NCBI GenBank assembly: GCA_948099385.1
Contig: CANUEZ040000002.1
Coordinates: 1,488,001 to 1,552,000, forward strand
Length of the DNA stretch: 64,000 nt
Direction of reading: 5' to 3'
From: Fasciola hepatica
Lineage: Eukaryota; Platyhelminthes; Trematoda; Plagiorchiida; Fasciolidae
A program made the translations under genes and the position numbers. Of this stretch, positions 1 through 18,291 are shown one piece after another. Positions within the stretch are counted from its first letter, which is position 1. Each line of letters begins with the position of its first letter. The notes under the pieces are model-generated. The model ran no database searches. It had not been told where the DNA came from and saw only the letters and a program-made list of their open reading frames with translations.

Positions 1-457
1 CTTCGCTTGAGTGATGTTGGCGTGGTCACATAAAAATCAAATAGTCCAGGAGCTTGCAACCAGGTTCCACTGAACTCTTCCCCCCGAGTGCGGCACCAGA
101 AGGCACAGTTTCAAGCTACAGAGGGCATGCTCAGGGCTCGAAACAAAGAATAATTTTTTTCACAAATAGGGTAGCACCTACGTGGAATGGACGGTCAGGG
201 GACGCTGTTGAATTAAGCGGTGTACCACCTTTCAAAGATGGCCTAGGTTCACGCTCGAACACAGAGCTAGCTGTGTAAACGAGTGATGAGGTAGGAAACC
301 CCTGGTATTTTCGTCAACGAATTTATGTCTGCGAAGATTGTACTGCCTCGCAAGTTCTGCCTTTAAAAAAACGCTCAATGCGCAGTGTAGAGGGCCAAGG
401 AAGCTCGCCGACAACAAAACGATCTGGACGCTCGATTGGTCTCTGCCAATTTGTCCT
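1..457 (+). mobile_element. CR1-like LINE 3' end, 5'-truncated (LINE C)
   Basis: The stretch from about 120 to 278 encodes a decayed C-terminal tail of a CR1-like reverse transcriptase: a TNRVAPTWNG block followed by GVPPFKDGLG, matching the NRV..WN..(P)..FK pattern that ends LINEs A and B in this window. The rest, about 280-457, is 3' untranslated sequence resembling the 3' end of LINE B at 16.32-16.52 kb (GCCGACAACA then TCTGGAC.CTCGATTGG). The left limit is uncertain because bases 21-66 also resemble 6376-6416. It is followed directly by a LINE A fragment. Confidence 0.6.
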
Positions 458-458
458 G

Positions 459-1138
459 CCTAGAGAAAGTCCAACGTCTCGCCACGCGAATGGTTGAAGG
501 GCAGAGGGGTAAGACTTACGAACAGAGGCTCTGTGATCTGAATCTTTTCTCGTTGTAGAGGACAAGAAATCGAGGAGACCTCATGGATAGTTCAAGGTAA
601 TGAAGGGCTTTTCTGGCCTTAGACCAGATAGTCCATTCCAAGTGGCCCTAGATTCCCGAACAATGGGACAAGAAAAGAAGCTAATAAAAGCCCGATCTAT
701 GTTGACGGCTGGATAACACTTCTTCAGCAACGGGGATGTGAACAGTTGGAGCGGTCTGCCTGGTCGAATGATAGATCAGCAGACCGTCCAATCCTTCAAA
801 GGTGTCCTAAATCACAAGTGGTACGAAATACTTCCTCGTAGTGAGCCTTGAGTATATCAACTAGATGGATGAAGGGTAGCACTGTGGTCCTTCTGGAGTA
901 TGTTTGAATAGACTTTTCGCTCATTGCATACTGTCTCAGTGAAAGCTCACAAAGCATAATGTCTCTCGCAGTTGATATGCAATGAGGTTTTCCGTTACCC
1001 TCTCATTTTTAGAGGGGATTCGACGACATACACTCGGAAGTGGTGAGTGTATAACTGGTGTGCATACCGTCAAAGGAAATGTGGACGCTCGATTGGCCGT
1101 GGCCATTACCTGTCCTGTGCAAACTGATCTGAACGCAG
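459..1138 (+). mobile_element. LINE A, 5'-truncated CR1-like fragment
   Basis: This is a close copy of 17588-18260: last part of the reverse transcriptase ORF, stop codon near 849, and the 3' UTR, including a CTCATTTTTAGAGGGG segment and the terminal GATTGGCCGTGGCCATTACC block. The coding part is broken by small indels and substitutions, for example around 555-585, so it is a dead copy. It ends in CTGATCTGAAC, a short version of the (CTGAA)n tail seen at 18.25 kb. The junction with the upstream LINE C fragment has a CCTG microhomology. Confidence 0.8.
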
Positions 1139-1243
1139 GAAATAATAAGGGTTACACCTGACAGCCCAAAATTTGTCATAGTCTCGCTGAGAACGGGCAC
1201 ACCTGATCTTAAGAGGCCGAATCTACATATAGCGAAACTGGAG

Positions 1244-1726
1244 ATGACCTTTCTTGGGAAGTCAACACCTAAGGCCCAAGGAGTAGTTCAGGTACCGAAG
1301 GTGGCTTCAGGTGCAGGTAAACAAAAAGCCAAAGTTCAGGAAGTTCGAAAGACCAAAAAGAAGGGGACTCGCAAGGCATTCAATCTGGTTGGTGTTGAGA
1401 ACGTGCAGCCAGCCAGCCCGATTCTAAAGGAGACTCCCAAAAGGTTCTCTCTGGTGCAACCAGCAAAGTTGGAGGTATCAGAGGGAAAAGCCGAGGAAAC
1501 CAGTTGGGCTGAGGTGGTCGCAAGACCATCCCGGGCCATCGGTGTGGCGAATCAAAAGGGGGTAAGGTCCTCTGTGCATGTTGATCCCGACACCGGGTCG
1601 ACGGGTGGGAAAGAAAAAGCCAAGAAACTCAGAATGTCACTTGATATCCAAGATGCGGCACAGCCGACACCTTTGGAGGCAAAAAACGGAGCATCTCCCC
1701 GGAGATTGCGCCCGAGGCTATCCTAG
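1244..1726 (+). CDS. LINE B ORF1-like protein
   Basis: This is a 160-residue open frame starting with ATG, rich in Lys, Ala and Pro and strongly basic (KTKKKGTRK near residue 40, RRLRPRLS at the end), with no clear zinc knuckle or PHD finger. It lies just upstream of the endonuclease frame, where a CR1-like LINE carries ORF1. ORF1 proteins of this class bind the element RNA; that role is inferred from position and charge only. The frame may be truncated, since most CR1-like ORF1 proteins are longer and some carry a PHD finger (compare 48.5-49.7 kb). Confidence 0.5.
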   Translation: MTFLGKSTPKAQGVVQVPKVASGAGKQKAKVQEVRKTKKKGTRKAFNLVGVENVQPASPILKETPKRFSLVQPAKLEVSEGKAEETSWAEVVARPSRAIGVANQKGVRSSVHVDPDTGSTGGKEKAKKLRMSLDIQDAAQPTPLEAKNGASPRRLRPRLS

Positions 1727-1740
1727 CCGTAAAATTAGCA

Positions 1741-1968
1741 ATGAAGTCGGTAACGAGGACCAGGGAACCGTCAATATGGTACACCAAAACCTGCAGTCTG
1801 CCGGGAAAAAGAGGGGAGTTGACGACTAGGATCGCCGAGTTTGATGTCGTTGCATTGACGGAAACTTGGATAAAGCCAGATGCTGACATGCGCTTTCAGA
1901 GATACGCTGCCTACAGGCAAGATAGAACAGATGGGAGGCAGGGGCGGAGTAGCGCTTCTAATACGGAC
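1741..1968 (+). pseudogene. LINE B endonuclease, N-terminal part
   Basis: The translation shows the APE-type endonuclease hallmark LTETWIKP (catalytic Glu) after FDVVA. A one-base frameshift near 1930 precedes the GGVALLIR strand. The BEL/Pao LTR begins at 1969 and cuts the domain here; the remainder resumes at 13792. In a CR1-like LINE this domain nicks the target for target-primed reverse transcription. It is inactive here. Confidence 0.8.
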
Positions 1969-2343
1969 TGTAAAGAACGTTTGAGCAAAGCGTAGCCAAA
2001 TTCGCAACGGATTCCGAAATCAAATGACGTTTATCCGCGATATTCTACGATACTAGATTATTACATGAACAATGACATCAAAAATATACAAACCCCAATA
2101 ATACGATCACAAGGACTCAACAACGAGAAACCGAATAGCAGCGTATGAGCAAACAGCACGTGCGTCACACAGGTCCTGAACAAGGATGTGCCAAATTAGC
2201 GCTCTGGGAGCGAACAAACAACAATTGGTCCATAGAAACAACCAGTTCGTAAAGACAAGCCAATAGTGTAGGCAAATGAGTGATGTTAGGAAAAACACTG
2301 AACCGCGAGGGAAAAAGGGGTTTTTCCACGACCGGCTGTTACA
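1969..2343 (-). repeat. BEL/Pao 3' LTR
   Basis: This 375-bp direct repeat matches 13413-13786. It begins TGTAAAGAACG and ends GCTGTTACA, with terminal inverted bases TGTAA/TTACA. The central part, from about 2000 to 2320, is base-for-base identical with the other LTR, whereas roughly 30 bases at each end carry all the differences. Confidence 0.92.
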
Positions 2344-3073
2344 CCGAACACCAAAATCCTCCCGGATCCTTGGCAGAGTCAAAGGTTCGGTATAAATGTA
2401 ATGATTCTTTCTACCTACCTAGGCCCTGCTGTCAGTGAGCGCGTCTAATGCTCGTCGTCAAAGTTCTGCCACTGGTCGCGCCTAACCCATTGGCTACATA
2501 GGCGTTAGGCTAGTCTACATCTTCCACAAGACCGAATGACCGATGACGGGCGTGAGGGGGGCACGTAGATGCCGTCATTGTAAAAGGCCGTCCTGTCCTG
2601 AATGTATGTGCTTGATTGATTGAGTGCGTGTATGTGTGTGTGCCGGGGTGTACAATGGAATCACGGGTATGACTGCACATCAAAGGAGGACTTTCTGCAA
2701 TGTCAACCAAAGGCTGTAAGGCAAAAACGAGTAAAATGTAGGCATGTGTGTGACCTAAGCTCCGCTACTTCTACATATGCAAGGGTCAATCGGTAACGTC
2801 AAAAAAACCAAACAACGAACGCTGTCACACGTTCGGTGGGGTTACGGGGTGTAGAGTGCGTCGGGCATGTGTGTATGCTTCGGGATGTACAATGGGATCG
2901 TATTTATCACCACATTTCGGAAAAAACCTTCTGTAATGTTAACGGAAGACCGTGAGCACTGTAACGTGTTTGACGGAGACCGTGTGGTATACATGGTGTT
3001 TCTTTATCCACCTCGATGACTAGTGCGAAAAGGTCTACTGGGCCTCGGAGTTACCATCTCCTCCGCCTTCGCT
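2344..3073 (-). other. BEL/Pao 3' non-coding region with diverged tandem repeat
   Basis: No coding frame is seen between the DUF5641-like tail and the 3' LTR. Two similar units of about 240 bp lie at roughly 2580-2820 and 2830-3000. Each has a TG-rich run (GTGTATGTGTGTGT or CATGTGTGTATGC), then GGG.TGTACAATGG.ATC and a CTGTAATGT/CTGCAATGT block. Confidence 0.5.
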
Positions 3074-4645
3074 CTAGAGTAGGTTAATACTGCGTATATC
3101 ACTAATGAGCACTCTGTTGGCTGTCCTAACCTTCACCGTTCTTATCATTCCGTCAGTGCTTTTGATGGTTTCCGTAACTACTCCCAAAGACCAAGTGCTG
3201 AAATGCGCGCGTTCGTCGGTGATCATAACCACATCCCCAACTTTGAATGGCCTTGTTTTCACCAGCCACTTCTGTCGAGTCTGCAGAGCCGGTAGGTACT
3301 CCCGTAGCCATCGCCTCCAGAAGACCTTGACCAGATAGTTCGCTTGCTTCCTTCCGGGGAGGTAGCTCCCGCGAAGGTTTACCGGCCCTTGGAAACCCTC
3401 GTTCCACTTTCACGTCAATTAGTCGTTGGGGGTGAACGCCAGGTGGGCGAGGCCGTCGTTTATTACTGGAACCAGGGGGCGGTTGTTCAGGATTCTCTCC
3501 ACCTCAGTCATGACGGTGTTCAGCGTCTCGTCGTCGGGCGGTTGCTGCTCCATGGTTGACAGCAATATCCGTCTGGCGGACCGGATCATGCGTTCCCATA
3601 CGCCGCCTCGGTGGCTGGCCTGTGGGTGGTTGAAATGTCGTCGTATGCCGTAGGCCACGGTTCGATCCTGCAGTTTGCCCTGTTTATGTTCTTGTGCCAA
3701 CGCTGCAATTCCCGGTGAGCGCCCACAAAGTTCGATCCATTATCTGAGTATATATCGGCCGGTACGCCTCTTCGGTTGATAAATCTCTGCAAGGCCCGTA
3801 GAAACGAATCGGTCGTCACTGAATGTGCGACTTTTAGGTGTACCGCACGTGATTTCATGCACGTCATGATACATCCATATCGCTTTTCAAATCTCCCCCC
3901 GCACTTGATCCACAAGGGCCCGAAATAGTCCAACCCGGTGTCGCTGAACGGCCACCAGCCCGCAGTCACCCTGCATTCTGGTAGTGGGGCCATGAGTTGT
4001 TTGACCGCCGTGGCATTGCGTCTCCTACATTGCACACACCGTCGGATTACGCGTTTTACAGTCTCTCGTCCTCTCAACAACCAAAGACGCTTTCGGATGA
4101 CGCTCGTCACGTGACTCTCCTCGGAATGTCCCTCCATGGCGTGGACGTGTTGAATCATTAGCTCTACTAAAGGTTGTCGCGCAGGCAGCAGTATAGGATA
4201 CTTTGTGTCGAAGTTCAGGTGGGCGTTGGTCAGCCTACCATCCACCCGCAGCAGTCCATCAATGAGTTTGGGGTTTAAACGCTTCAAGTCGCCTCTTGGA
4301 AATGATATTTCTTTGTTGATTGGTCCCACTTCTTCCGCCCTCTCGAGCTCTCGGACGAAATCCTCTCGTTGTATCATTCGGAGAATATCGTATTCTGCAG
4401 CTTGTAGCTCATCGGGACTTATCGGGCCGACCCGTATCCGGCCTGAGGGCCGTAGCCCTTTCATGACCAGTAAATTTCTCTTGAACCTGGTTAACCAAAC
4501 TAGCGAGCGAAGCGTCTTCATTCAGGAAAAAAACCTGACCAGTCGCGATAGAATGGATGTTGGCCGCTATCACTACGCCTTTGATTTCCGGTTCTACTTC
4601 TGTAGGAGGTTTTAATTCGAACACGGGCCAGTCCTGTTTGGGCAA
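3074..4645 (-). pseudogene. BEL/Pao integrase and DUF5641-like C-terminal domain
   Basis: Reading from 4645 down, the frames give a linker (FLRLPKQDWP upstream of 4645), an HHCC zinc-binding domain (HVHAMEGHSEESH ... CVQCRRRN), then the DDE core: Asp in DTGLDYFGPLW, Asp in DIYSDNGSNFVG and Glu in GGVWERMIRSA. Next comes the ILNNRPLVP region and a DUF5641-like tail (FKVGDVVMITDE ... WSLGVV). At least three frame changes, near 4.45, 3.65 and 3.3 kb, break the polyprotein, so it cannot be made whole from this copy. Integrase would insert the cDNA into the host genome. Confidence 0.88.
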
Positions 4646-4679
4646 GCGCAGGAAGTTTGGCCCTCTCGTCCACGTGTCT

Positions 4680-4715
4680 AGTTGATGATAATGATAATGA
4701 TAATGATAATGGTCT
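4680..4715 (-). repeat. (ATTATC)n 3' tail of LINE-2
   Basis: The plus strand reads GATGATAATGATAATGATAATG, a hexamer repeat directly beside the ACGTG duplication. Short tandem repeats rather than poly(A) are normal at 3' ends of CR1-like and RTE LINEs. A related junction with (AAT)n followed by GGTTTATCTCGGGG occurs at 13.99-14.06 kb. Confidence 0.7.
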
Positions 4716-6920
4716 ATTTCGGATAACCCGAGGCATGCTGTAACGCAAGATCAAACGGTACAATTGGACGTAGAGTCCGAATTCCAAGAGGTTGGTTAAG
4801 GTATGTGCACTCAATATTGTACAGGAGGAAGTATTTAAGTCACTCTCTGTGGCGGCGCCCGGCAAATTTGAACTCAAGGTCGGGTGGCCAGCCCGGTCAA
4901 GTCAGGGTCGAGCTGGTCGAAGGTAGCTGACTCTTCCTGAAACAGTACAAAAAGAAGTGCTATGCAACAAGAGAATCAAACAGAATTGACGAAAGTTTTG
5001 TTCACTTCGAGGGAAAAGAAGTTTCCGAGGGAGACATGAACCAGTTATTGCGATCTGCGGAGTATGGCAGGGCTTTGGATTGGAAATCAGACGATGAGAG
5101 GAATGAATTTGCAGACAAAGAACAATCAAAATCTTTCGAAGATTTTCCTTGAAACGTTCAGCGACCAAATATCAGCTGAGTCCATTAAATACCCAATGAA
5201 GGACTCATTTGTAGAGAGTGATTGCCTAGGTGATGGTAAAAGAAGTGACCGGACGCAAGCATGTAATCGTTGCGCACATTGCTAACGTTCATGAGGGGGG
5301 AATGTGATGCACCAAAATAGAAATGGGTACTGGGCGACAAATCAGTTTGTGATGCGTAGCCATGATACTAGCAGACACACGGTTTGCACAGATGAGTATT
5401 TAAATGGCAGGTAAGTATTTACGTTTGACTATCGTTATCTAAGGGCCGAAAATAAAGACCAGAGGGATGCAAGAATCAAAATTGTCTGGGAGGATTTACC
5501 GAGATAGAATACCGGATATGAAAAAGCACCAACAAACGCTGAATACAGTTGCGAAGTTGGGCGGCTGGATGTGGGTGGAGTCCGTGATAAACCAAACGGA
5601 CATCACATCTGGCGAGGTCGCTGGAGTGATGGTGGAAGAAGTGGCAGGATGTAAACATGTAATCGTTGCGCACATTGCTTACTTTCATAAAGGTGAAATG
5701 TGATGCACCAAAATAGAAATGGGTACTGGGCGAGTATTTAAATGGCAGGTAAGTATTTACGTTTGACTATCGTTATCTAAGGGCCAAACATGATGACCGG
5801 AGAGATGCAAGAATGAAAATTGTCTGGGAGGATTTACCAAGATAGAAACCGGACATTGTGGTACGGAAGTGTATGGCAACAATAAATGTGACTTTTGCAA
5901 ATATACTGATAACTTATAAAATAAAAGCGAGTTTTATCTCGGGGATTGGTTAAGTTTGCTAATAGGACAAGCTGGCAGTTTGGCACGAATCATCGGGAAA
6001 AAAAGGATCATGAACGGTAAGCCGAGTACGGAAACGGTCTTTTAACCCCGCGATAATTATGTGCTAGGGAAAGTAGATTTTTCTGGGCGTAAGAAGCGGT
6101 AAGGTAAGGTTGCGAAGATGGAGACAAGTACGATGAAAAATAAGCGGTAACTGGGGGAGATAGTTCCATATTTGTAGCATTTCGGGTGAATGATTTTTGC
6201 TGTGACCGGTGCTGGTGGGTGGGGCTGACCGTGCGCGGGACACCCAACCTGAAAACCGTTTTTGTTGACAGGTGCCATCCGCAATCCTATCTGTGTCCGC
6301 ACATCGTTGCAGACGTCCTGCACGCCCGATGTGCGTCGGCCAATGTGATGGATCTGACCGCGGCCCGCTGCGTTGTCACATAGAGATCGAATAATCCAGG
6401 AGCTTGCGACCAGGTTGCGAGGGGTCCTGGAGAGCATGGCCTGTGTGGTAGTGACGAAATGACGAGCAGGCATCGAGTTTTCAGCGGGAAATGTGGGACA
6501 GGTATTAAGCCAAGCCATCGAAGGGAAGGCATCATCAGTGGTTGTCTGGAAAAGTAAAAATAGGAAAACGCAGTCTGGGGTGCTCCCAGCTGAGGATCAG
6601 CGGTCAGTAGTAAAGAAAAACCTCTAGTATCTAGAAATTGGAATTACTCGGGGGATGGTTCGATTTTGCTAAACACAAGGTTTTACGCGAAAGATTAATG
6701 AAACTTGAGTGGTATTTATGGCGACTTTTGTGGTACGTAGGTCTCGTGGCCCCCGACTCAGACCCGCGTGTCAGTAACCCAAACCAACTTCGTACGCTCG
6801 CTCCTCCGAAGTGTATGGATCATTGTTTGATACGAGTGTCAGGACATCAAGCCGTTTGTTTAATTCCTCTTTGAATCTCGGCAAGTGGCTTATTGCACGG
6901 ACATTTGGTGGAAGTTTATT
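4716..6920 (-). other. LINE-2 3' non-coding region or further nested repeats
   Basis: No convincing coding frame is present. The region contains a spaced direct duplication (5250-5853), two TATCTCGGGGATTGGTT-like motifs (5931-5973 and 6641-6681) that resemble the sequence beside the LINE-2 tail, and a GC-rich block (6190-6480). Bases 6376-6416 resemble 21-66 of this window. It may be a genuine long 3' UTR or a mixture of small insertions. Confidence 0.4.
5250..5853. repeat. Spaced direct duplication, unit repeat of about 395 bp
   Basis: The segment 5250-5515 recurs at 5645-5853: GTAATCGTTGCGCACATTGC, then ATGTGATGCACCAAAATAG, then TATTTAAATGGCAGGTAAG and TTGTCTGGGAGGATTTACC. The second copy lacks about 60 bp present in the first (5332-5393). 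The intervening 130 bp is unique. No known family was recognised. Confidence 0.75.
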
Positions 6921-9584
6921 CTACATTTGTGAGTATTTAACAATGAAGAAATTGGACCGTAGGCTGGTTCTCGAGGACGGCACAGTGACCGAATGACTGC
7001 TGTGTCGTAACGAATACCTTAGGCTTAATGGGTCTCGTACCACAGGGGAGGCTTTGCAGGATCTATATTTTAATAGTGAGTGGAAAAAAGACAAGTTGTT
7101 CTTTATCCGTCGGAGCCAAAGGGGTTCGAGGTGTAGCAGGTCACAGCGTTGTTTATAGTTGAGACTAGACGAATATCCAACTATTTGTTTAGTAAAGGTG
7201 CGCTGGACATTTTCGATGGCGATCCTATCAGTCTGGCGCATGTTGGAGCCAACTATTGAACTATACTCTAGCAATGGTCTAACGTGTGTTGTATAGACAC
7301 TGAGTTTACTTTCACGCAAACGGAATGTTTTGTGGACAAGTCCTATTAACCTGCGGGACCTAGCAATTTGAGTGTCTGTTTGCTCCGAGAAGTTGAACGA
7401 ACAGGAGTAGTATATTCCCAGGTCGCGTACTGATGATTTGTTGGGGATCAGGTGACCACCTATACTAAACGTTTCGGGAGGGACATGACACTTGTATGTA
7501 AGAATGCAGCTTTTGTCCGCCGAGAACTTCATTAGACAATCGGTACACCACGAATTGAGCATCCGCAGGCCCTCAGATATTTTTGCTATAGTATTACCCA
7601 ATGAATTATGGTCGAAGGTGTACAACAACTTTACATCATCAGCGAATAAAAAAGGAGTTCCATGACGAACCACGGTAAATATGTCATTTATGTACATGAG
7701 AAACAACAACGGGCCCAGTACACTACCTTGAATCACACCGCTGGTTACAGGGCTGGGTGTGGAAGTTGTGCCATCAACGTTTACCACTTGACTGCGCGAG
7801 GACAAGTACGATTCTAGCCAGGCATATAGTGGGTCAACAATGCCGAATGTCTTAGCCTTTGACAACAAACGAATGTGAGACACCCGGTCGAAGGCCTTAG
7901 ACATGTCTAAAAAGACTGAGATCACTGCCTTACCATCATTGGCAGCTTTCGTAATAAGGTTCAGAAAGTCAGTCATACAAGTTGCACAGGATCGATGTTT
8001 CGGGAAACCGTGCTGACCTTCACTTATAAGGTGGTTTTTAAGGAGGTGATCTGTTAGTTTAACTTTTATTAATCTTTCCATTATCCTCGATACTACTGGG
8101 GTATGATTCACAGGCCGGTAGTTGGCCGGGTCCTCCCATGTTCCCTTCTTATGAATTGGAATAATAACCGACGTTTTCCACTGTGTAGGATACCAACTAA
8201 AATGCATAGACAAATCGAATAAATTCGATAAAAGAATTGGGATATCTGGGCCACCCAATTTAAAGATGGCCGATGGTAACGAGTCCGACCCGGGGTGGAA
8301 AGACATTTTGATATTTGAAATTAAAGGCTCCATTTCGGAGGGCAGGAATGTTACTGCAGAAAGTGGCTCATATGATGGTACTGGTGGATTGCAGAAAAAT
8401 GGTGCTGTGTCACTAATTAAGGAAGAAGCAAAAAACGTGTTAAGCGCTTCTGCAATGTCCAGCGGTTTGTCGAGGCATGTGTTATTGAACGAGATAGAAG
8501 AGATAGATGAAGTTGTTTTGGGGTTCCTCGACTTCATCAGTTTTGCAAGAATCTCGACTTTCTTGGAATCACGTAAGGCCCTGAGTTCCTGTTGTATCAT
8601 TTCACTCTCGGGGTACAGTTTTATCGTTTCAGCCAGACGATTCAACTGTATAAACAGCGAAAAGTCCCTTGTTTTAAGATAAACGCGTTGGAGTCTACTT
8701 AACTTCAAGTTGAGACGAGACAATTTATTGTCTTTAGGGCGGATTGACGACCCTTGTGACGGAGTTATTCGGTTGAGGCATCGTTCAAAGATGGAGTAAA
8801 ACTGATCTGCCGCCAGCTGGGGATCTGCACTTAAAAAGAAGGTGTCCCAATTTTGGCTCCGAATCAGAGAAGGTAGTATATTCCAGTTAGCCTTATGATA
8901 TGGTCTATGCGGGGGTGTCGGCTGTTTATCTTTTATGGGCACTGTGAAGCAGCAGTGGACAGTTGCGTGATCACTTCCGGGTAGGTTATTCTGAACTTTT
9001 GTTACAACCTGGGTTAATCCTATTGACAAGATTAAGTCAAGAGTGTGGTCGCGTCTGGTTGGGGACGTGACGTGCTGCTTCCATCCTCCTAGGTGAATTG
9101 CATTCAAAAACTGTGGTAAATGGCGTGGTGCTGTGAGTGATGTCCAGCATATTTCTGGTGCATTAAAGTCACCAGCTTTCAATTTTGGGCCTATTTTAAG
9201 ATCACCAATCAGGTTGAGTGCCTCTATAATTTGCTTGAAACTATTAGGACTGGATCTAGGCGGACGGTATACGCAACCTAGTATCAGTTCTTGACGTTCA
9301 ACTTCAACGTTCAGCCATACAGAGTCGACAATGCCGTCTAGGATAGGGTGCTGAAAGCTTGTCGCCCTGAGAGTTTCCTTTACATACACTAGACAGCCTC
9401 CACCACGTTGATGTGTTCTGCCTTTGCTGAAGGATTTGTAGCCGAGTACCTCAATATCCTCTACTAGATAGGAGTCCGATATCCAAGATTCCGTCACTAA
9501 AATGAAGTTATAGTCATTTGTTAGTGCAGCTGATCTTATGTATTGGATTCTGTTCCTAATAGATCGTGCATTGACCAATAGCAA
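6921..9584 (-). CDS. LINE-2 ORF2: endonuclease and reverse transcriptase
   Basis: This is an 887-codon uninterrupted frame encoding the enzyme that nicks target DNA and copies the element RNA. The first 225 residues or so are an APE-type endonuclease: VNARSIRNR near the N-terminus, LVTESW (catalytic Glu), KAGDFNAPEI and GSDHATVHC (catalytic Asp-His). The reverse transcriptase follows, with FLDMSKAFDR, GVIQGSVLGPLLF and FLFADDVKLL (the FADD active site near residue 630), then a conserved C-terminal extension. A stop precedes the first codon in this frame and the likely N-terminal extension is in another frame, so one frameshift near 9590 is probable and the annotated start is not a true ATG. 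Otherwise it looks potentially functional. Confidence 0.88.
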   Translation of the reverse strand: MLLVNARSIRNRIQYIRSAALTNDYNFILVTESWISDSYLVEDIEVLGYKSFSKGRTHQRGGGCLVYVKETLRATSFQHPILDGIVDSVWLNVEVERQELILGCVYRPPRSSPNSFKQIIEALNLIGDLKIGPKLKAGDFNAPEICWTSLTAPRHLPQFLNAIHLGGWKQHVTSPTRRDHTLDLILSIGLTQVVTKVQNNLPGSDHATVHCCFTVPIKDKQPTPPHRPYHKANWNILPSLIRSQNWDTFFLSADPQLAADQFYSIFERCLNRITPSQGSSIRPKDNKLSRLNLKLSRLQRVYLKTRDFSLFIQLNRLAETIKLYPESEMIQQELRALRDSKKVEILAKLMKSRNPKTTSSISSISFNNTCLDKPLDIAEALNTFFASSLISDTAPFFCNPPVPSYEPLSAVTFLPSEMEPLISNIKMSFHPGSDSLPSAIFKLGGPDIPILLSNLFDLSMHFSWYPTQWKTSVIIPIHKKGTWEDPANYRPVNHTPVVSRIMERLIKVKLTDHLLKNHLISEGQHGFPKHRSCATCMTDFLNLITKAANDGKAVISVFLDMSKAFDRVSHIRLLSKAKTFGIVDPLYAWLESYLSSRSQVVNVDGTTSTPSPVTSGVIQGSVLGPLLFLMYINDIFTVVRHGTPFLFADDVKLLYTFDHNSLGNTIAKISEGLRMLNSWCTDCLMKFSADKSCILTYKCHVPPETFSIGGHLIPNKSSVRDLGIYYSCSFNFSEQTDTQIARSRRLIGLVHKTFRLRESKLSVYTTHVRPLLEYSSIVGSNMRQTDRIAIENVQRTFTKQIVGYSSSLNYKQRCDLLHLEPLWLRRIKNNLSFFHSLLKYRSCKASPVVRDPLSLRYSLRHSSHSVTVPSSRTSLRSNFFIVKYSQM

Positions 9585-9835
9585 TGTGAAATTTCAGTGC
9601 TTCTGACGTCATCATTGATATTAGTACTTACCGTTTGTTGACTGCTGCATTTAACCTGGAAAGAATCATCAGCGCAAGATGCAAGCCCGCCTAAGTTGTC
9701 ATTAGCAAAGGGAGGACTTGGGTCTGCGTGTGGAATAATAAATGATAGGGTATTAGGTATTACACTACTATAGGGATGATGAGAACAATTCATAATAGGC
9801 ATATCTGGGTTATGGGGCCATGTTGTTCCCACGGT
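9585..9835 (-). pseudogene. LINE-2 5' region, probable out-of-frame N-terminus of ORF2
   Basis: A frame on the minus strand runs through this segment (NPDMPIMNCSHH ... STEISHCYW) and overlaps the ORF2 frame near 9560. It is low complexity and Ser/Asn-rich, as N-terminal leaders of such ORF2 proteins can be. No separate ORF1 was found before the boundary with BEL sequence at 9836, so this copy may be 5'-truncated. Confidence 0.45.
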
Positions 9836-9840
9836 ACGTG

Positions 9841-10484
9841 CCTGAAGTTGTTTGCAACTCGGGAGCACAGGTCTGCCGGATTATCTCCAGACCTGACATG
9901 ATTCCACTGGTTCGTAGCTGACTCATCGTGGATAATCGTGAGTCGGTTAGCAACGAAAGTATTAAACCGGCTCCGGACGTTGTTGATATAGTAAAGTACT
10001 ATCGTTGAATCCGTCCAGAAGCTAACCAACCGAATGTAGAGGTCGAAACATGTCTTCACAGCTTGCACCGCCCTGACTGCCAACACGGCTGCGCTGAGTT
10101 CAAGGAGTGGGATTGAGACCGACTTCAGTGGAGCAACGCGGGCTTTAGCGAACAGGATCCTCGTAGTACATTGTCCATCTCCGGTGCACCATCGTCCGTA
10201 CACCGCAGCTCCATAACCGACTTCGGATCATCGGAAAAGGCATGTAGTTCTCCAGTCCGCGTCGTATGGCCAGGAGTCAAACATCGTGGGATTCTTATGT
10301 CCCCTAATTTCTTCAAGGTGTTCAAACATTCTTCCCAGTCCAACCGGTTCCCCCGGTCCAGTGACTGGTCCCAATCAATCTTCCTGCGGCACAGCCACTG
10401 CAGCAAGATCTTTCCGGGTATAAGCCATGGTGAGACGAAACCAAGAGGCTCGAACAAAACTTGAGACAGCAGATAGGATGCCAC
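9841..10484 (-). pseudogene. BEL/Pao RNase H region
   Basis: Two overlapping minus frames encode the domain. The upstream one gives FEPLGFVSPW, DWEECLNTLKKL and ELHAFSDD (first catalytic Asp region). After a frameshift near 10180 the second gives SIPLLELSAAVLAVR, FWTDSTIVLYYINN (catalytic Asp) and NPADLCSR. RNase H removes the RNA strand during reverse transcription. The coding continuity breaks at 9836-9840 where LINE-2 is inserted. Confidence 0.85.
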
Positions 10485-11253
10485 GACGGGTTATTGGCAG
10501 CTCGGGAACGTTTAGTTCGAAAACAAGGTCGTCCGTTTCCGCATTCCATTGTATTCCTAAAGTGCGCTCGATAGGAAGTGGAGAGCCGTCCAAGTCTCCT
10601 ACCCTTTCGGCCTTTTCGTGATACAAGATGACCTTCAGCACTTCTGAAGCGTTCGACATCCATTCCGTTAGATGGAAGTCGCATTCTTCCAGCAATCCAA
10701 CTCTGAAATGCTCTAGAGCTGATTCCACATCGTCGAATGACCCAAGGTAGTCGTCGACGTAGAAGTTCCTGCTGACGCTATCTACCACCGTCCGATGGAC
10801 TAGATCGCAATGTTTGTTCGCTGATTCTCGGAGGGCGTAGTTCGCACAAAATGGTGACGATATGGCTCCGAATGGGTGGACGGTCATTCTATAACTCACC
10901 ACTGCGTTGTCTCGGTCGCTCCCTTCCCACCACAGGAAAAGCAACGCATCTCGTTCTCCTACCGAAATCTTCACCTGATGAAACATTTCCCTAATGTCAG
11001 CAGACAAAGCCACTTTACCCACTCTGAAACGGCACAAAACATCGATCATTGGTGTGGTCCAGTCAGGTCCTTGTGGTAAGCGATCGTTTAACGACTTGCC
11101 CTGGAACTTGGCCGCACAGCCGAAAACCACCTGCAGTTTTCCGGGCTTCTTGGGGTTGATAACCGGATGGTGAGGCAGATACCAGATACCCCTTTTGCTG
11201 TCGGTGTTAACAGGCACCTTTTCAACGTAACCGAGGGCTTCGTTTTGCGTCAA
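10375..11253 (-). pseudogene. BEL/Pao reverse transcriptase
   Basis: The frame has 292 codons. It begins in the fingers (LGYVEKVPV ... GIWYLPHHPV), contains SADIREMFHQV (first Asp), HPFGAISSPFCANYAL, and the active-site NFYVDDYLGSF (YVDD). The sequence around WYLPHHPV and VFGCAAKFQGKSLND is typical of BEL/Pao. A frameshift separates it from the protease region near 11260, and a second leads into the RNase H frame near 10.4 kb. Confidence 0.9.
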
Positions 11254-11303
11254 TAAATCAGCGTATTGTTCCCACAGATTCTGGTCTCGAATGAAGCGTT
11301 CTT

Positions 11304-12245
11304 TTAGTCGTAGTAATCGTTGGAGAACATAGTTTCTGTTGGCAGTCCACAGGTCGACAGATGTGCGCCGTGGGAGGGGAACCTCGAACTGTTTTTGAGG
11401 CCCCTAGTGCCTTGCCGCACCGTTTGTAGAGCGAAGTGATTCTCTTGAGACAACGTTCGTCTTTCGTCTCCAACGTCATGAAACTCCTTTTCATACAGCG
11501 GCTGCAAATGGTATTCTACGCGGTCCGTTTCGGGGGATAAGTAACTCACGGAACCACGTACCCCTACTGGACCGTATAAGATCCATCCCAGAGCCTCGCG
11601 TACGGCATAAGGTGCCTGGCGGTCGCCCGCTCTCTGGTCAAGCACCCAATGCACCTCTGGCACGTCGCAGCCGATGAGGAGATCCACTTCGTCGTCTTCC
11701 CAGTCTGCAACGGTTACATCCTGCAGGTGGGGCCATCGAGTCAAGATTGCGTTGACCGACCTTGGTGCTCGCATGGGGAGATCCGCTAACGTGAATGCCT
11801 CCGTTGGTTCAATTTCCTCGTTAGTGTCCAGAGAGATGAGTTGCAGCCTTAATCTACCGGCAGTCATTACCTGTGTTCCGCCCACCGTGCTCACTGCTAA
11901 CGAAGTCGCACCTTTAGCCAGTTGGTGTTTGTCGGCAAACCGCCCTTTCACTAGAGTAGTGTCGGATCCATTATCGACGAAAGCCAACGCCTTGACTATC
12001 CCAGTCGGAGTCACTACTCCCACGGCCACTACGCCTAAATGTGCCGCTTTGCTGGCAGATCGTGACGTTGAACAAATCACACTGGGCTTGGTACTCGCCT
12101 CGGGTAAGGTTACTCTCGCCTGGTGCAGCAGCCGATGGTGTCTGCCCGTGCAGCCCTCGTAACCACAACGGTTCCTTGTCCTACAGGCTGCCGCCCGAAG
12201 AGTGGTGTTGAGACAAATAAAACACGCTCCTGCAATCCTCGCCAT
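11304..12245 (-). pseudogene. BEL/Pao zinc-knuckle region and retropepsin
   Basis: This is a 313-codon open stretch within the polyprotein. It starts with a Cys/His cluster, CFICLNTTLRAAACR then CGYEGCTGRHHRLLH, which is the nucleic-acid-binding knuckle. About 60 residues later comes the aspartic protease strand ALAFVDNGSDTTLVKG; the catalytic triplet reads Asp-Asn-Gly-Ser where many retropepsins have Asp-Thr/Ser-Gly. It continues with DDEVDLLIGCDVPEVHW and ALGWILYGPVG, both typical of BEL/Pao. Confidence 0.85.
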
Positions 12246-12485
12246 TCCCCACCTTTCGTCTATTGTGGCGCTGCCGAACTTGGGGCATTCTGGTGGGCCA
12301 TGGCTAGCACCACAGGATCTGCAATTGGGTTGCGCCGTAACATCGCGTGAAGTGGCATGTGCATTGGTCCAAGGCTGGTATTTTGGATGTTCCCGTACAG
12401 GGGTTTGAGCTTGGCTAGTACTGGGCTTGTTTGCTCGGTTGCTGTCCCGGATGAGTCGACCAAACCTGCTGTCACCTATCTTGGT

Positions 12486-13301
12486 TTACCTGTCCAAGTA
12501 TTCCGTCAGGTCTTCGAAGTTAGCTTCCCTGTCGCTTCGGCTTATCCGTTCTGCTTCTTCCGCCCACCGACCCTGCAGTTCGGGAGGAAGGTGACGGACT
12601 ATGTTATCCAAAGTGTGCATCTCATCTAAGTCAGCCCTGTAACCTAAATGGTCGGGGGCTATTGAGCAGTTTCGCATCTTGGTCAGCAGATCGGCCATTG
12701 TGTAGACGTCGCCCTTGGTTTTATTTGCCTCTGCCATCACGCCCTCTATTAGGTTACGGGCTATTTTGAATGGTTGGCCAAACAAGTCCTTTAGAATCTT
12801 CCTTGCTCTTGTGCAGCCTTGTTCCGGGTCGAGCATGGTACTACTGTCGATAGCTTCTCTTGCATGGCCTCGACAGTAGTGAGTAAGGTAGAGGAGCCTT
12901 TGCCCAGGGTCGGTTACCTTATTTTCAACGAACGTCTCGAACTGCTTGACAAACTTGCAGTATTGTTCAGCTCGCCCGTCCAAAACCGTTAGTTCCACTC
13001 TGAGCAGATCGATCGATGGTGGTTTGTAGTCGGCGACCGGCGTGGGGTTCCCTATCTTATTGCACCCTAATCTATCAGAAGTGTCGAAGTCGCTGGTCTC
13101 ATGCTCTCGCTCTTTCTGGGTACACTTCTTCCCTGCTTCCTGTGCCTGTGGTCTAGCCGATAGTAACTGTTGTTCTAGGTCTATTATTATCAGCCTATAT
13201 AAATCAACATCCTTGCGATCAGTATTGCTCTCATTAACACATGAACTAGCACTGACAGGACTAGGCCATCTAACATTAACAAAAGAATCAAATGTACCCA
13301 A
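12486..13301 (-). pseudogene. BEL/Pao gag (DUF1759-like)
   Basis: This is a 271-codon frame near the 5' LTR. It has a Cys-, Glu- and Lys-rich N-terminal part (IIDLEQQLLSA), then a capsid-like region: YCKFVKQFETFVENKV, GQRLLYLTHYCRGHAREAI, ARKILKDLFGQP and LDNIVRHLPPELQ. This pattern is the DUF1759 region found in BEL/Pao gag. A frame change near 12480 leads into the Pro-rich stretch before the zinc knuckle. Gag forms the particle in which reverse transcription occurs. Confidence 0.85.
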
Positions 13302-13384
13302 AACCTCCCCAGAGACTTGCCGTGTTACTTCCTGTCAGGCTTCCAATTTTTTTCTATCCTATTTTTGGCATTTTGTGTGTTTTT

Positions 13385-13394
13385 CCTCGCACCA
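13385..13394 (-). promoter_or_regulatory. Candidate primer-binding site
   Basis: On the minus strand, 18 nt downstream of the 5' LTR, the sequence reads TGGTGCGAGG. It begins with TGG, complementary to a tRNA 3' CCA end. The offset from the LTR is larger than usual, so the assignment is tentative. Confidence 0.3.
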
Positions 13395-13412
13395 AATTGA
13401 TCTATTGAGTAT

Positions 13413-13786
13413 TGTAACGAACGCTTGAGCAATGCGCAGCCAAATTCGCAACGGATTCCGAAATCAAATGACGTTTATCCGCGATATTCTACGATACTAG
13501 ATTATTACATGAACAATGACATCAAAAATATACAAACCCCAATAATACGATCACAAGGACTCAACAACGAGAAACCGAATAGCAGCGTATGAGCAAACAG
13601 CACGTGCGTCACACAGGTCCTGAACAAGGATGTGCCAAATTAGCGCTCTGGGAGCGAACAAACAACAATTGGTCCATAGAAACAACCAGTTCGTAAAGAC
13701 AAGCCAATAGTGTAGGCAAATGAGTGATGTTAGGAAAAACACTGAACCGCGAGGGAAAAAGGGTTTTTCCAAGAACGATTGTTACA
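13413..13786 (-). repeat. BEL/Pao 5' LTR
   Basis: This 374-bp copy pairs with 1969-2343. It starts TGTAACGAACG and ends GATTGTTACA, giving a 6-base terminal inverted repeat TGTAAC/GTTACA. It is followed on the right by TGGAC, the second copy of the target-site duplication, and then by the rest of the LINE B endonuclease. Confidence 0.92.
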
Positions 13787-13791
13787 TGGAC

Positions 13792-13980
13792 CGACATAGG
13801 CCACTGGTAGGCCCCGTTCAACTTGGTCTCCGGTAATGTACAGGCCAGATCCTGCTTTATCAGGATCGAGGTGCGAACATTATGCATTATCTTTATCTAC
13901 AGAGCACCGCTAGCAACAACTGAGGATGGAGTTGAGCTCTTGCAGGTGCTGGATGCGGTGCTGGCACAGACGAAGGGGTT
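13792..13980 (+). pseudogene. LINE B endonuclease, middle part
   Basis: This continues the frame left at 1968: TDIGHW, a stop at TAG, then NLVSGNVQARSCFIRIEV, IIFIYRAPLATTEDG and VLAQTKGFI. The next expected element, the catalytic GDFN loop, is missing and replaced by the microsatellite insertion at 13981. Confidence 0.8.
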
Positions 13981-13984
13981 CATC

Positions 13985-14044
<60 letters not shown>

Positions 14045-14075
14045 GTTTATCTCGGGGACACGCGAAGCATGCTCG
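13981..14075 (-). mobile_element. Short LINE-2-type 3' end with (AAT)n tract
   Basis: About 19 AAT units (13986-14042) are followed by GGTTTATCTCGGGGACACGCGAAGCATGC, which resembles GGTCTATTTCGGATAACCCGAGGCATGC beside the LINE-2 tail at 4713. It is best explained as a severely 5'-truncated minus-strand insertion whose 3' tail is (ATT)n. It removed the GDFN loop of the LINE B endonuclease. Confidence 0.6.
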
Positions 14076-14076
14076 A

Positions 14077-14745
14077 TTGCATGATCATGTGATCTCAACC
14101 TGTCTGAAATCAACCGGTGGACAGCACCCGTCTTTCCTTGATTTAATCATAAAGCGGCACCATCTGGACGTTAATGAAATTAAGTGGGAAGGGCCACTTA
14201 GAAAAAGTGATCATGTAGTCCTGAGGGTCACACTAAGACTAAACAAGGCGCCGAAGGAAATCGAGCTACGCCGGCGCTATGGGAGAATCAATATAGGTGA
14301 ACCAAAGAGGGCGGTGTTGGAAGTCCAGTGGACACCGAGACACAGAAACGCTTCCGTGAGGGAACTTTGGGAGGCCATCAAGATGGGGCTACTCGAACTT
14401 ACAGAGGAGTTTGCACCCCTGAGGGTGGCTAGCAGTAGGAATCTACCCCGGCGGTGGAAGTCAAAAGTCAGCAAGGCTATGGTTATTCGTAGGCAACGAT
14501 GGGCGGCGTACAAGCTGTACAGAACTCAGGGGGCATGGAATAGCTATAAGATGGCTAGGAACAGGGCTCAAGAGATCCAAAGAGTGGAGAAATATGCCTT
14601 CGAGCGTCGGTTAGCGGCGTCGGTCCGCACAAACCCAAAGCGATTCTACGCCTACGTGCAATCTCACAAAACGTATGAGAGAGAGCGTAGCAACTTTGGA
14701 AGGAGCACAGGGACGACTAGCTCTAAACGACGAAGACAAGGCTGA
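14077..14745 (+). pseudogene. LINE B endonuclease C-terminus and linker
   Basis: The frame encodes HDHVISTCLKSTGGQHP, FLDLIIKRHHLDV and RKSDHVVLRVTLRL, the last strands of an APE-type endonuclease with the catalytic Ser-Asp-His. A basic linker follows (KSKVSKAMVIRRQRWAAYK, FERRLAASVRTNPKRFYAYV). It overlaps the reverse transcriptase frame; a single frameshift near 14675-14690 separates them. Confidence 0.85.
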
Positions 14746-16321
14746 CACGCTCTTGGAATTCTTCAAGAGCATATATCGACCAGAAAATAGTTTGGAGGAA
14801 AGGATGGAGGGCCCACAGGCGCCTCCAATACCCGAACTTACTGTAGGAGAAGATGAAGTGTACGCGGAGTTGCAAACTTTGAATAGAAATAAAGCAGCAG
14901 GTCCAGACGGGATTCATCCAGCAATCGTTCAGCCTCTGGCCGAGGTCCTGAAGGCTCCGGTGACGAAGCTGTATGAAACGTCACTTAGAGAGGGAATTGT
15001 GCTGGGAGACTGGAGGAGAGCAACAGTGGTAGGCATTTACAAGAGTGTACCCCGGCAAAAGGCCGAAAATTACCGGCCGGTTAGCTTAACTTCAGTACTG
15101 TGTAAGTGCCTGGAGCGAATAGTCAGGAAGCAGATCTCTAGGCATTTGGTTCAACACAACCTCATATCAAATGCCCAGCATTGGTTTGTGGCAGGACGAT
15201 CCTGTCTGACGAATCTCCTGCTGTTCCTCGATGAGGTAACCAAGCGTCTGGACGAAGGGCAATCGATTGCGGTCTGTTACTTGGACTTCAGCAAGGCATT
15301 TGATTCCGTGAACCACAGATTTCTGGACGTCAAACTGCAGTCTATGGGAATTGTTGGAAAGGCAAGACGATGGATAAGTAGTTTCTTAGCAGGGCGAACC
15401 TTTAGTGTTAAGGTGGGGAACCATGTTTCAAAACCGGAAGGTGTAACAAGTGGGGTGCCACAGGGCTCGGTGCTCGGCCCTCTGCTCTTCCTCATCTTCA
15501 TCAACGACCTAGCACGTGGGCTTACAAACCCCACCTTTATGTTTGCCGATGACGTCAAGATAGCGGGAGTAGATATAGAACTTGATGTGTTAGCAGTACA
15601 AAACTGGGCACGGAAATGGGACCTTCCACTTAACCTCACCAAATGTCAATGCTTGACCACAAATACAGGGGCTAGTTGGAATGGTGTGGGTTCGTTGCAA
15701 GTGGTCTCGCAGGTCAAAGACTTGGGCGTTATAATGGACAACAGCTTTAAGCCGTCAAAGCAGTGCACCTCAGCAGCCAATACGGCCAGGAGGGAACTCT
15801 TTCGAGTTAGATCCATTATGTCGTGTAGAGATCCGGAGATTTTCGTTCCGATATATCAGGCCATAGTTAGGCCGCATATGGAGTACTGCGTGCAGGCCTG
15901 GGCACCGTACTACCAGAAAGATATCGACTGTCTGGAGAAAGTGCAAGGGCTAGCCACTAGAATGGTGGCTGGGCAAAGGGGGTTTAACTACACAGAGCGT
16001 CTCCGTGCCCTAGACCTATTCTCGATGGAAAGACGGCGCATTCGCGGGGATTTGATAGAAACCTTCAAGGTAATGAAAGGACTGTCAGGAATAAGTCGAG
16101 AAGACCTTTTTTCGCTGATCCCCGAGAGAGGCACAAGGGGGCATAGCCTTAGATTACAAAGGAAACATTCGAGGCTCCAAATTAGGGCGAAGTACTTCTC
16201 AAATAGAGTGGTACCCTATTGGAATAAGCTTCCGGAAGAGGTCATAAATAGCACAACAGTGAAGGCCTTTAAGAAAGCAGTAGACTTATGTTGGGTGGCA
16301 GTATACCCCGAGTTATGTTAA
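14675..16321 (+). CDS. LINE B reverse transcriptase domain
   Basis: About 548 codons are open. Landmarks in order: NKAAGPDGIHPAIVQP, AENYRPVSLTSVLCKCLERI, YLDFSKAFDSVNHRF, TSGVPQGSVLGPLLFLIF and FMFADDVKIAG (FADD active site). The C-terminal extension has RRRIRGDLIETFKVMK, FSNRVVPYWNKLP and FKKAVDLCW, then a stop. This is a CR1-type reverse transcriptase. The frame itself is intact but the 5' half of ORF2 is destroyed. Confidence 0.88.
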   Translation: MRESVATLEGAQGRLALNDEDKADTLLEFFKSIYRPENSLEERMEGPQAPPIPELTVGEDEVYAELQTLNRNKAAGPDGIHPAIVQPLAEVLKAPVTKLYETSLREGIVLGDWRRATVVGIYKSVPRQKAENYRPVSLTSVLCKCLERIVRKQISRHLVQHNLISNAQHWFVAGRSCLTNLLLFLDEVTKRLDEGQSIAVCYLDFSKAFDSVNHRFLDVKLQSMGIVGKARRWISSFLAGRTFSVKVGNHVSKPEGVTSGVPQGSVLGPLLFLIFINDLARGLTNPTFMFADDVKIAGVDIELDVLAVQNWARKWDLPLNLTKCQCLTTNTGASWNGVGSLQVVSQVKDLGVIMDNSFKPSKQCTSAANTARRELFRVRSIMSCRDPEIFVPIYQAIVRPHMEYCVQAWAPYYQKDIDCLEKVQGLATRMVAGQRGFNYTERLRALDLFSMERRRIRGDLIETFKVMKGLSGISREDLFSLIPERGTRGHSLRLQRKHSRLQIRAKYFSNRVVPYWNKLPEEVINSTTVKAFKKAVDLCWVAVYPELC

Positions 16322-16521
16322 GCAGCTTTTAGGGTCAGATGCAATTTACTTATTGTTTCCACCTTACTCTGCCAGGGCTGATACTGCACAAAATTTCTGC
16401 CTTTCAGAAAAAGAAAATCACGCAGTGTTGGGAGCTACGGAAACGCGCCGACAACACAACTATCTGGACACACGATTGGCTCTAGCCACACCAAGTCCTG
16501 TGCAAACTGAACTGAACAGCC
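16322..16521 (+). other. LINE B 3' UTR and (CTGAA)n-type tail
   Basis: This follows the LINE B stop codon. It contains GCCGACAACACAACTATCTGGAC, ATTGGCTCTAGCC and the end CCTGTGCAAACTGAACTGAAC, matching the 3' ends of LINE A and LINE C. The next bases belong to a 5'-truncated LINE A, so one open frame runs artificially across this boundary. Confidence 0.75.
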
Positions 16522-18291
16522 ACAGGTCAGCGGGCCCAGATGGCATTCATCCAGCTATCATCAAGCCGTTGGCGGATATCATAGCTCCATCGGTATGCAG
16601 ATTGTATAGATCCACGTTCGACCAGGGAAAGCTGCCTCAGGACTGGAAAGTCGCGGCAGTCGTGGCAATACATAAGAGTGGGCCTAAGTCGGATGTGCAG
16701 AACTACAGGCCGGTAAGCCTAACTAGCATTCTCTGTAAAGTTCTCGAGAAGATCATCCGTGCTCATATCTGCCAGCACTTACTGCAGCACTCCATGCTAA
16801 GCCCGGCGCAGCATGGATTCCTGAAAAATAGATCTTGCCTGACCAATCTCCTGTGCTTCTTAGATGAAGTAACTCGACGACTGGACGAAGGTAAGCAAGT
16901 TGAGGTATGTTGCCTCGACTTTAGCAAGGCGTTCGACTCCGTTAATCATCGTCTTTTGCTATGCAAGATGGAGACTTTCGGGATAAGTGGGCCAGTATAT
17001 AGGTGGCTGGAGGACTTCCTCTCCCACAGGACGCTTTATGTCAAAGTGGGGGACAGGTGCTCCAGTTTGGTGAACGTCACCAGTGGTGTACCTCAGGGAT
17101 CCGTCCTAGGCCCAGTCCTATTCTTGTTATTTATTAATGACCTAGCATCCACTCTTCAATCGCCCAGCTTTATTTTTGCGGATGATGTGAAGATTGTTGG
17201 ATCTAAGGGTAGGGCGGACTTGGGCAGGGAAATAGGCACCGTCCTAAACTGGGCATACAAATGGGACTTACCTCTAAACGCTCAAAAAAGCCATTTGTTG
17301 TCAAGGGCAACAGAGAGCCTAACTGTCGCTCATGATCAAGGGCTGTTCACCGTAGAGGCAGCCAGTAGGGTTAAAGACCTGGGGATCACCATGAAAAGTG
17401 ACTTCAAATGGTCGGAGCAGTGCAACGCGGCTGCGCATAAGGCTCGTGGGGAGCTCTTTAGACTGCGATCGGCTTTGTCTTGCCGGAAGCCGGAGGTATT
17501 CGTACCTATTTACATGGCTATAGTACGACCTCACCTAGAAGGTAGTGTGCAGGCTTGGTCACCCTTCTACAAAAAGGACGCCGCCTGCCTAGAGAAAGTC
17601 CAACGTCTCGCCACGCGGATGGTTGAAGGGCAGAGGGGTAAGACTTACGAGCAGAGACTCTGTGACCTGAATCTCTTCTCGTTGGAAAGGAGGAGAAGTC
17701 GAGGAGATCTCATAGAAACGTTCAAGGTAATGAAGGGCTTTTCTGGCCTCAGACCAGATAGTCTATTCCAATTGGCCGTAGACTCCAGAACAAGGGGACA
17801 CGAAAAGAAGTTGATAAAAGCCCGATCTAGGTTGATGGCTAGATCGCACTTCTTCAGCAACAGGGTTGTGAACAGTTGGAACGGTCTGCCTAGTGAAATG
17901 GTAGATCTGCAGACAGTCCAATCCTTCAAATGTGCCCTTGATCGCAAGTGGTACGAGATCTTTCCTTGTAGTGAGCCTTAAGAATATCAACTAGATGGAT
18001 GACGGGTAGCACTGTGGTCCTTCTGGAGTATGTTTTAGCAGACTTTTTCCCTCATTGCACACTGTCTCAGTGAACGCTCACGATGCATAATGTCTCTCGC
18101 AGTTGATGTGCGATGAGGTTTTCCGTTACCCTCTCATTTTTAGAGGGGATTCGACGAAATGCACTCGGCAGTGGTGGGTGCATAACTGGTGTGCATACCA
18201 TCGAAGGAATTCTGGATGCTCGATTGGCCGTGGCCATTACCTGTCCTGTGCAGACTGAACTGAACTGAACTGAACTGAACTGAACTGAACT
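16522..18291 (+). mobile_element. LINE A, 5'-truncated CR1-like LINE
   Basis: The copy starts abruptly inside the reverse transcriptase (SAGPDGIHP) immediately after the tail of LINE B. It runs through a complete C-terminal coding region, stop at 17981, a 3' UTR and a (CTGAA)n tail. The 459-1138 fragment is a second, more decayed copy of its 3' part. Confidence 0.85.
16524..17981 (+). CDS. LINE A reverse transcriptase domain (5'-truncated)
   Basis: About 485 codons are open. Landmarks: SAGPDGIHPAIIKPLAD, QNYRPVSLTSILCKVLEK, CLDFSKAFDSVNHRLL, TSGVPQGSVLGPVLFLLF and FIFADDVKIVG (FADD). The C-terminal extension has LERRRSRGDLIETFK, FFSNRVVNSWNGLP and FKCALDRKW. The endonuclease and the first reverse transcriptase segments are missing, so it cannot act alone. 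The absence of frameshifts suggests a fairly recent insertion. Confidence 0.88.
   Translation, partial: RSAGPDGIHPAIIKPLADIIAPSVCRLYRSTFDQGKLPQDWKVAAVVAIHKSGPKSDVQNYRPVSLTSILCKVLEKIIRAHICQHLLQHSMLSPAQHGFLKNRSCLTNLLCFLDEVTRRLDEGKQVEVCCLDFSKAFDSVNHRLLLCKMETFGISGPVYRWLEDFLSHRTLYVKVGDRCSSLVNVTSGVPQGSVLGPVLFLLFINDLASTLQSPSFIFADDVKIVGSKGRADLGREIGTVLNWAYKWDLPLNAQKSHLLSRATESLTVAHDQGLFTVEAASRVKDLGITMKSDFKWSEQCNAAAHKARGELFRLRSALSCRKPEVFVPIYMAIVRPHLEGSVQAWSPFYKKDAACLEKVQRLATRMVEGQRGKTYEQRLCDLNLFSLERRRSRGDLIETFKVMKGFSGLRPDSLFQLAVDSRTRGHEKKLIKARSRLMARSHFFSNRVVNSWNGLPSEMVDLQTVQSFKCALDRKWYEIFPCSEP

Follow-up and report, generated by a model that had tools for sequence, protein, structure and literature searches.

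How did three retrotransposons come to lie one inside the other at a single locus of Fasciola hepatica, and in which order did they arrive? The locus is part of a stretch of 64,000 nt (contig CANUEZ040000002.1, positions 1,488,001 to 1,552,000), the whole of which is referred to as the window. Here, a long interspersed nuclear element (LINE) on the plus strand, termed LINE B, contains a long terminal repeat (LTR) retrotransposon of the BEL/Pao superfamily, termed BEL, which in turn contains another LINE, termed LINE-2. The locus is a three-level nest of broken retrotransposons belonging to known superfamilies. An initial annotation, made from the letters alone, had placed this nest at 1139-16521; the nest was upheld, with outer limits of 1135-16517 in place of the former numbers, and its joints are well preserved. 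The limits, the duplications, the orientation of the elements, the collinearity of the host elements across both joints and the broken frames were established here. Nests of such kind are commonplace in repeat-rich genomes, and a single locus settles no open question.

Layers of the nest

LINE B is present in two parts. The left part (1135-1968), whose left limit is set by the end of the CTGATCTGAAC tail of a preceding LINE A at 1134, comprises a possible remainder of the first open reading frame (ORF1; ORF 1244-1726) and the start of the endonuclease up to the residues GGVALLIR, the latter based on tblastn matches of LINE B relatives to 1774-1968. The right part (13792-16517), delineated by profile and relatives, holds the rest of the endonuclease, the reverse transcriptase (ORF 14675-16321; PF00078, E 4e-34) and the 3' end with its CTGAACTGAAC tail. 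According to its endonuclease and reverse transcriptase, which are collinear with those of its relatives, LINE B is classified as an endonuclease-type LINE. As proposed initially, the endonuclease is split at 1968/13792, and GGVALLIR and TDIGHW fall into one frame once the insert and the right-hand 5-bp copy are removed. The open frame at this place is short: it slips just left of GGVALLIR and meets a stop after DIGHW.

For an assessment of this joint, 14 relatives, taken from at least 120 listed, were compared with each side separately, and all 14 matched both sides of BEL collinearly. Five of them matched GGVALLIR plus a stretch shortly past the joint, while the other nine had no anchor near enough. 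The number of residues between the anchors equalled the window count exactly in P0094 (5), P0097 (5), P0102 (15) and P0107 (4); for P0112, 17 residues were found versus 16 in the window (one 5-bp copy discounted). At 8-16 residues and E values of 0.08-0.55 each, the matches to GGVALLIR are so short that their weight lies in position and not in score.

By sequence, the window is animal DNA, probably of a flatworm. The named matches of LINE B are mixed: among those listed, proteins of Dicrocoelium dendriticum are 51% identical to LINE B over the whole query, the stork Mycteria americana scores above them with 44% identity over 74% of the query, and the prawn Penaeus indicus shows 57% over 65%. 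LINE proteins of animal type were also encountered under Streptococcus, Paraclostridium and Cetobacterium (P0003-P0005, P0098, P0103, P0120, P0122); these bacterial-labelled records probably represent contaminated assemblies.

BEL spans 1969-13786 and lies within the endonuclease domain of LINE B, opposite to it in orientation. Its length is 11.8 kb with LINE-2, and 6,655 bp without LINE-2 and one duplicate. The 3' LTR (375 bp, 1969-2343) and the 5' LTR (374 bp, 13413-13786) are flanked by the target-site copies CGGAC (1964-1968) and TGGAC (13787-13791), as the initial annotation had it. On the minus strand, the 5' part (9840-13412; identified by Pfam and motifs) encodes gag with Cys-His boxes, protease, reverse transcriptase (YVDD) and RNase H. 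The 3' part (2344-4671; identified by Pfam, motifs and the relatives P0210-P0232) comprises the end of the linker between RNase H and integrase, the integrase (H2C2 and catalytic core) and a 3' untranslated part. Both parts are frame-slipped, and the coding part as a whole carries many frame breaks.

The assignment to the BEL/Pao LTR retrotransposons is based on Pfam matches and motifs. PF05380 (Pao peptidase) matches 10203-9793 with E 1.3e-12 (48.4 bits versus a cut-off of 22.3), and PF17921 matches in the integrase part, PF00665 being below its cut-off there. PF00078, PF03564 and PF05585 in the 5' part are weak and below cut-off; the gag, protease, reverse transcriptase and integrase-core profiles all stay under their cut-offs in this element. 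The motifs follow one another on the minus strand (Cys-His 12323-12123, DNGS 11975, LIGCD 11678, YVDD 10761, NPAD 9882, integrase motifs 4149-3587), and the domain order gag, protease, reverse transcriptase, RNase H, integrase is that of BEL/Pao elements. The first and the third Cys-His box fit; the second (CFICLNTTLRAAAC) is without its His as read. The closest named matches of the integrase belong to two schistosomes, Schistosoma haematobium and S. mekongi.

According to the available text of its description (PMC554778), Sinbad of Schistosoma mansoni is a BEL/Pao element of 6,287 bp in total with 386-bp LTRs. The element studied here is similar to it in LTR length (375 bp) and size (6,655 bp), in the order gag-protease-reverse transcriptase-RNase H-integrase, in its Cys-His boxes, LIGCD and YVDD, and in that a copy whose LTRs closely resemble each other carries several stops and frameshifts. 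In contrast to the Sinbad copy described there, it has RNase H and integrase separated by a LINE, its LTRs are not identical, its protease reads DNG instead of DSG, and the second Cys-His box, as read, is without His. DAS, a motif of the Sinbad RNase H, was not found by a pattern search in any frame of 10500-9840, a place of frame breaks.

LINE-2 (4677-9834, minus strand) shares the orientation of BEL, its site being between RNase H and integrase. The initially reported split of these two domains at 9835/4677, with ACGTG on either side, is borne out by exact 5-bp copies at 4672-4676 and 9835-9839. Judged from the printed bases, the duplication may also be longer, at 13-15 bp, but imperfect (CAACT...CACGT on both sides). 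Two of the 23 BEL relatives, P0225 and P0221, reach over the joint and bridge LINE-2, with the end of RNase H near 9859 on one side and a WxxGP motif at 4672 on the other; P0220 and P0232 cover both sides without the joint stretch, and the other 19 do not cover both sides. A residue-by-residue look at the joint was taken for five of the 23. On the integrase side, P0225 matches over 35 residues (E 2.8e-4 versus 18.5 kb, 4.7e-7 versus short stretches).

LINE-2 itself is made up of an endonuclease-reverse transcriptase ORF2 (main frame 9584-6921), a 3' untranslated part of about 2.1 kb and an ATGATA-repeat tail (4685-4711). PF03372, PF14529 and PF00078 were each found over their cut-offs, and from its sequence we classify LINE-2 as an endonuclease-type LINE with a simple-repeat 3' tail and a target-site duplication. 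Both LINE B and LINE-2 are presumably CR1-like; like CR1-like endonuclease LINEs, they combine endonuclease and reverse transcriptase in ORF2. LINE-2 differs in that the nearest relative found shares only 53% identity with it (among the best 7992 candidates scored). Trematode CR1 elements are treated in PMC8392823, as far as its available text goes.

The description of the LINE-2 ORF2 as unbroken had to be abandoned. A frame of 887 codons is indeed open, but a TAG at 6923-6921 (minus strand), 49 codons ahead of the next in-frame stop, removes the last 49 residues. The ten closest relatives (P0001-P0010) align beyond this TAG in the same frame, reaching between 6855 and 6774, and an intact ORF2 was rejected on these grounds. 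Upstream of about 9590, the main frame has stops, another frame is open and the N-termini of the relatives are unaligned; the N-terminal part probably lies in a different frame. As LINE-2 itself is broken, it is not to be taken as intact or active. Stops or frame breaks are present in each of the three copies of the nest, all of which are probably dead.

The 2.1 kb between the coding end at about 6770 and the tail of LINE-2 contain internal duplicates of 88-92% identity (5230-5337/5626-5733 and 5394-5519/5732-5856); a further insert inside this part is possible. In addition, 47 bp at 87% identity are common to the left edge of the window (20-66) and the 3' part of LINE-2 (6370-6416). Viral contigs scanned with LINE-2 and with the reverse transcriptase piece of BEL gave no matches, and neither did E. 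coli genomes searched with the 3' part of LINE-2, a search of little sense. In alignment A1 versus genome contigs (11 loci) and viral contigs (1 locus), identity was at most 41%, with no near copies.

Order and age of the insertions

From the geometry of the nest, LINE B is older than the insertion of BEL, and the BEL sequence is older than the arrival of LINE-2 in it. We consider it very probable that LINE B came first, BEL second and LINE-2 third, through three successive retrotransposition events. The initial annotation had proposed the same order and termed it strict; we keep it as the most probable order, but strict it is not, since LINE-2 could have travelled to LINE B inside a BEL that it had entered before. 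Insertion order derived from nesting is relative and independent of a molecular clock.

Regarding the insertion chemistry, which we infer from family membership, target-primed reverse transcription would first have brought in LINE B, an endonuclease-type non-LTR element. The endonuclease sequence of LINE B would then have received, in opposite orientation, a BEL/Pao element of about 6.7 kb, integrated by its integrase via a 5-bp staggered cut. LINE-2, also a non-LTR element of the endonuclease type and with a microsatellite as its tail, would have been copied later into BEL between RNase H and integrase, in BEL orientation and with formation of a duplication of at least 5 bp. We likewise infer that BEL already resided in LINE B when LINE-2 arrived.

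The same nesting geometry and duplications would result if LINE-2 had entered BEL elsewhere and LINE B had then received the 11.8-kb composite, with an intact BEL assisting in trans, and the common orientation of LINE-2 and BEL would fit such a course. However, composite movement requires trans-complementation plus an over-long RNA, and no observation made here favours it. In the available text of a survey of plant LTR elements (PMC6911290), nested pairs are considered as probably not moved together, chimeric elements that move and are reshaped being left open. We regard movement of the composite as very improbable at this locus. Coding lesions amount to at least four in about 2.7 kb for LINE B, at least six in about 5.1 kb for BEL, and two, of which one is probable, in about 2.9 kb for LINE-2. 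These counts, which are few and partly a matter of judgement, agree with LINE-2 as the youngest element and do not separate LINE B from BEL.

Some observations weigh against three successive insertions as outlined. The target-site copies of BEL, CGGAC and TGGAC, differ at one of the five positions. At the inner joint, the reading frame of BEL slips a few codons ahead of the LINE-2 site, and the distance from the NPAD-SR end to WxxGP is 23 bases in the window versus 11 and 12 residues in P0225 and P0221, respectively; the linker is thus shortened and frame-slipped, and the evidence for the joint is homology plus the duplication, and not reading-frame continuity. The RNase H-side match of P0225 also extends 21 bases into LINE-2 (to 9814), with a W..HGP there that resembles the linker. 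Neither an empty site nor a further copy was found, the source genome having been outside the search, and long identical blocks in divergent repeats of the window make some assembly homogenisation possible. As for the W..HGP just inside LINE-2 (down to 9814), its interpretation as BEL linker was rejected and the likeness attributed to chance, the integrase side fitting P0225 over 35 residues.

A further explanation would be that the nest, in whole or in part, was misjoined from repeat copies during assembly. The window is dense in repeats. In a set of 14 repeat pairs (at least 200 bp long and at least 85% alike), five pairs, that of the BEL LTRs included, contain identical runs that 2000 shuffles never attained, which could reflect polishing or collapse. 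A misjoin, however, is not expected to produce a target-site duplication together with host collinearity at two independent insert sites, and we consider an assembly artefact very unlikely as the origin of the nest.

The LTRs of BEL, direct repeats with ends TGTAA...TTACA, are identical in 366 of 375 columns (97.6%). Taken at face value, this identity would speak for a recent insertion of BEL, with BEL and LINE-2 arriving in quick succession. All nine differences, however, are clustered in columns 6-25 and 349-368, i.e. in the outer 25 and 27 columns, where 9 of 52 columns differ, whereas the core of 323 bases is identical; a gap of 324 columns between differences was reached in none of 200,000 random placements. 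The many frame breaks in the coding part also speak against a recent BEL, an explanation that we consider unlikely. Because the differences are confined to both ends, LTR divergence cannot date this copy, and the clock-free order is useful here: judged by the LTR pair alone, BEL would seem young, yet the pair differs only at its ends.

LTR conversion or assembly collapse accounts for the pattern better than youth of the element. Assembly homogenisation explains it as well as gene conversion does, given the long identical runs in five of the 14 repeat pairs of the window. In plants, conversion between LTRs has been proposed to be widespread, and about a fourth of nested elements had LTRs more divergent than those of their host elements, according to the available text of PMC7251063.

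CTGAAC joints and the LINE array

LINE B is not alone: LINE A, which ends in CTGATCTGAAC at 1134, is immediately followed by LINE B, and LINE B, ending in CTGAACTGAAC at 16517, is immediately followed by LINE C, which ends in a CTGAA array (18255-18300). The three LINEs are thus arranged head-to-tail on the plus strand and joined at CTGAAC repeats. LINE A and LINE C are 89% identical over 682 bp, and LINE B belongs to another subfamily (65% in the shared block).

CTGAAC-repeat runs were found at 1112-1134, 16495-16517, 18243-18300, 49764-49754 and 51988-51978. These five runs in 64 kb, each with at least two CTGAW units, compare with 0.16 expected from dinucleotide shuffles, the pattern having been picked after the tails were seen. 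The runs ending at 1134 and 16517 directly precede LINE B and LINE C. The run at 18243-18300 is the tail of LINE C, with no recognised LINE after it. The CTGAACTGAAC run at 49764-49754 is located just before the minus-strand LINE D, whose exact 5' end is not independently fixed. LINE D (45686-49720) consists of an ORF1, which we take to resemble a PHD finger, and a broken endonuclease-reverse transcriptase ORF. The two minus-strand CTGAACTGAAC runs (51988-51978 and 49764-49754) were also considered as LINE tails; this was rejected, as the sequence upstream of them is unlike the 3' ends of LINEs A, B and C.

We tentatively propose, with the balance of our judgement somewhat against it, that the LINE B family may prefer CTGAAC repeats, its own 3' tails included, as insertion sites, thereby stringing copies head-to-tail as in A-B-C. 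Directed insertion is opposed by the run at 51988-51978, which has no recognised LINE alongside, and by the joint before LINE A, which is without such a run. If the proposal were true, the nest would be built upon a LINE array that targets itself. As the most promising lead from this locus, the CTGAAC joints could serve to test microsatellite- or tail-directed LINE insertion in flatworms. Neither the nest nor a CTGAAC-tailed LINE was met among the papers listed in our literature search, which does not prove either to be unpublished.

As described in the available text of the respective reports, elements inside elements are also a feature of plant LTR nests (PMC6911290), and the LINE Zepp of Coccomyxa forms clusters of nested copies (PMC3446292). 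The nest analysed here is unlike both as they are described there, in that an LTR element is mixed with LINEs and a short-repeat tail forms the joint between neighbouring LINEs.

Minor inserts and other repeats

The right part of LINE B holds a small insert (13986-14087, minus strand; inner limit uncertain, about 14076-14087), consisting of (TAA)19 and a short 3' end similar to the one of LINE-2. The TAA array was delimited to 13986-14043 by Tandem Repeats Finder (TRF). The insert replaces about 27 endonuclease residues at the place where relatives carry the GDFN motif, residues 161-187 of P0094 being absent. It is 77% identical to 4685-4753 of LINE-2 over 70 bp, 26 bp of which are simple repeat. 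For the part outside the repeat, the score versus the LINE-2 3' end was reached by none of 5000 shuffles, and by three of 6384 window stretches, a set that includes those over LINE-2's own tail. A blastn search with 13960-14100 as query returned only itself at E 0.01, and a pattern search allowing up to 9 mismatches did not pick up the tail of LINE-2 as a relative of the insert. The direct comparison supports a likeness to the LINE-2 3' end, and LINE B would accordingly hold a small remnant of a (TAA)n-tailed LINE.

Elsewhere in the window, identical blocks of 138-224 bp are found in repeat copies that are otherwise 88-94% alike (31295-31506/57083-56872, 54600-54823/56597-56374, 23051-23222/31601-31430 and 26350-26487/53506-53369). 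We attribute these blocks to conversion or assembly homogenisation; selection acting unevenly along coding repeats may also contribute to the identical runs. Finally, direct repeats of 172 nt with 94% identity (29134-29305 and 32600-32771) are located beside an ORF on the minus strand (29296-30000), which presumably resembles the end of a Gypsy-type integrase.

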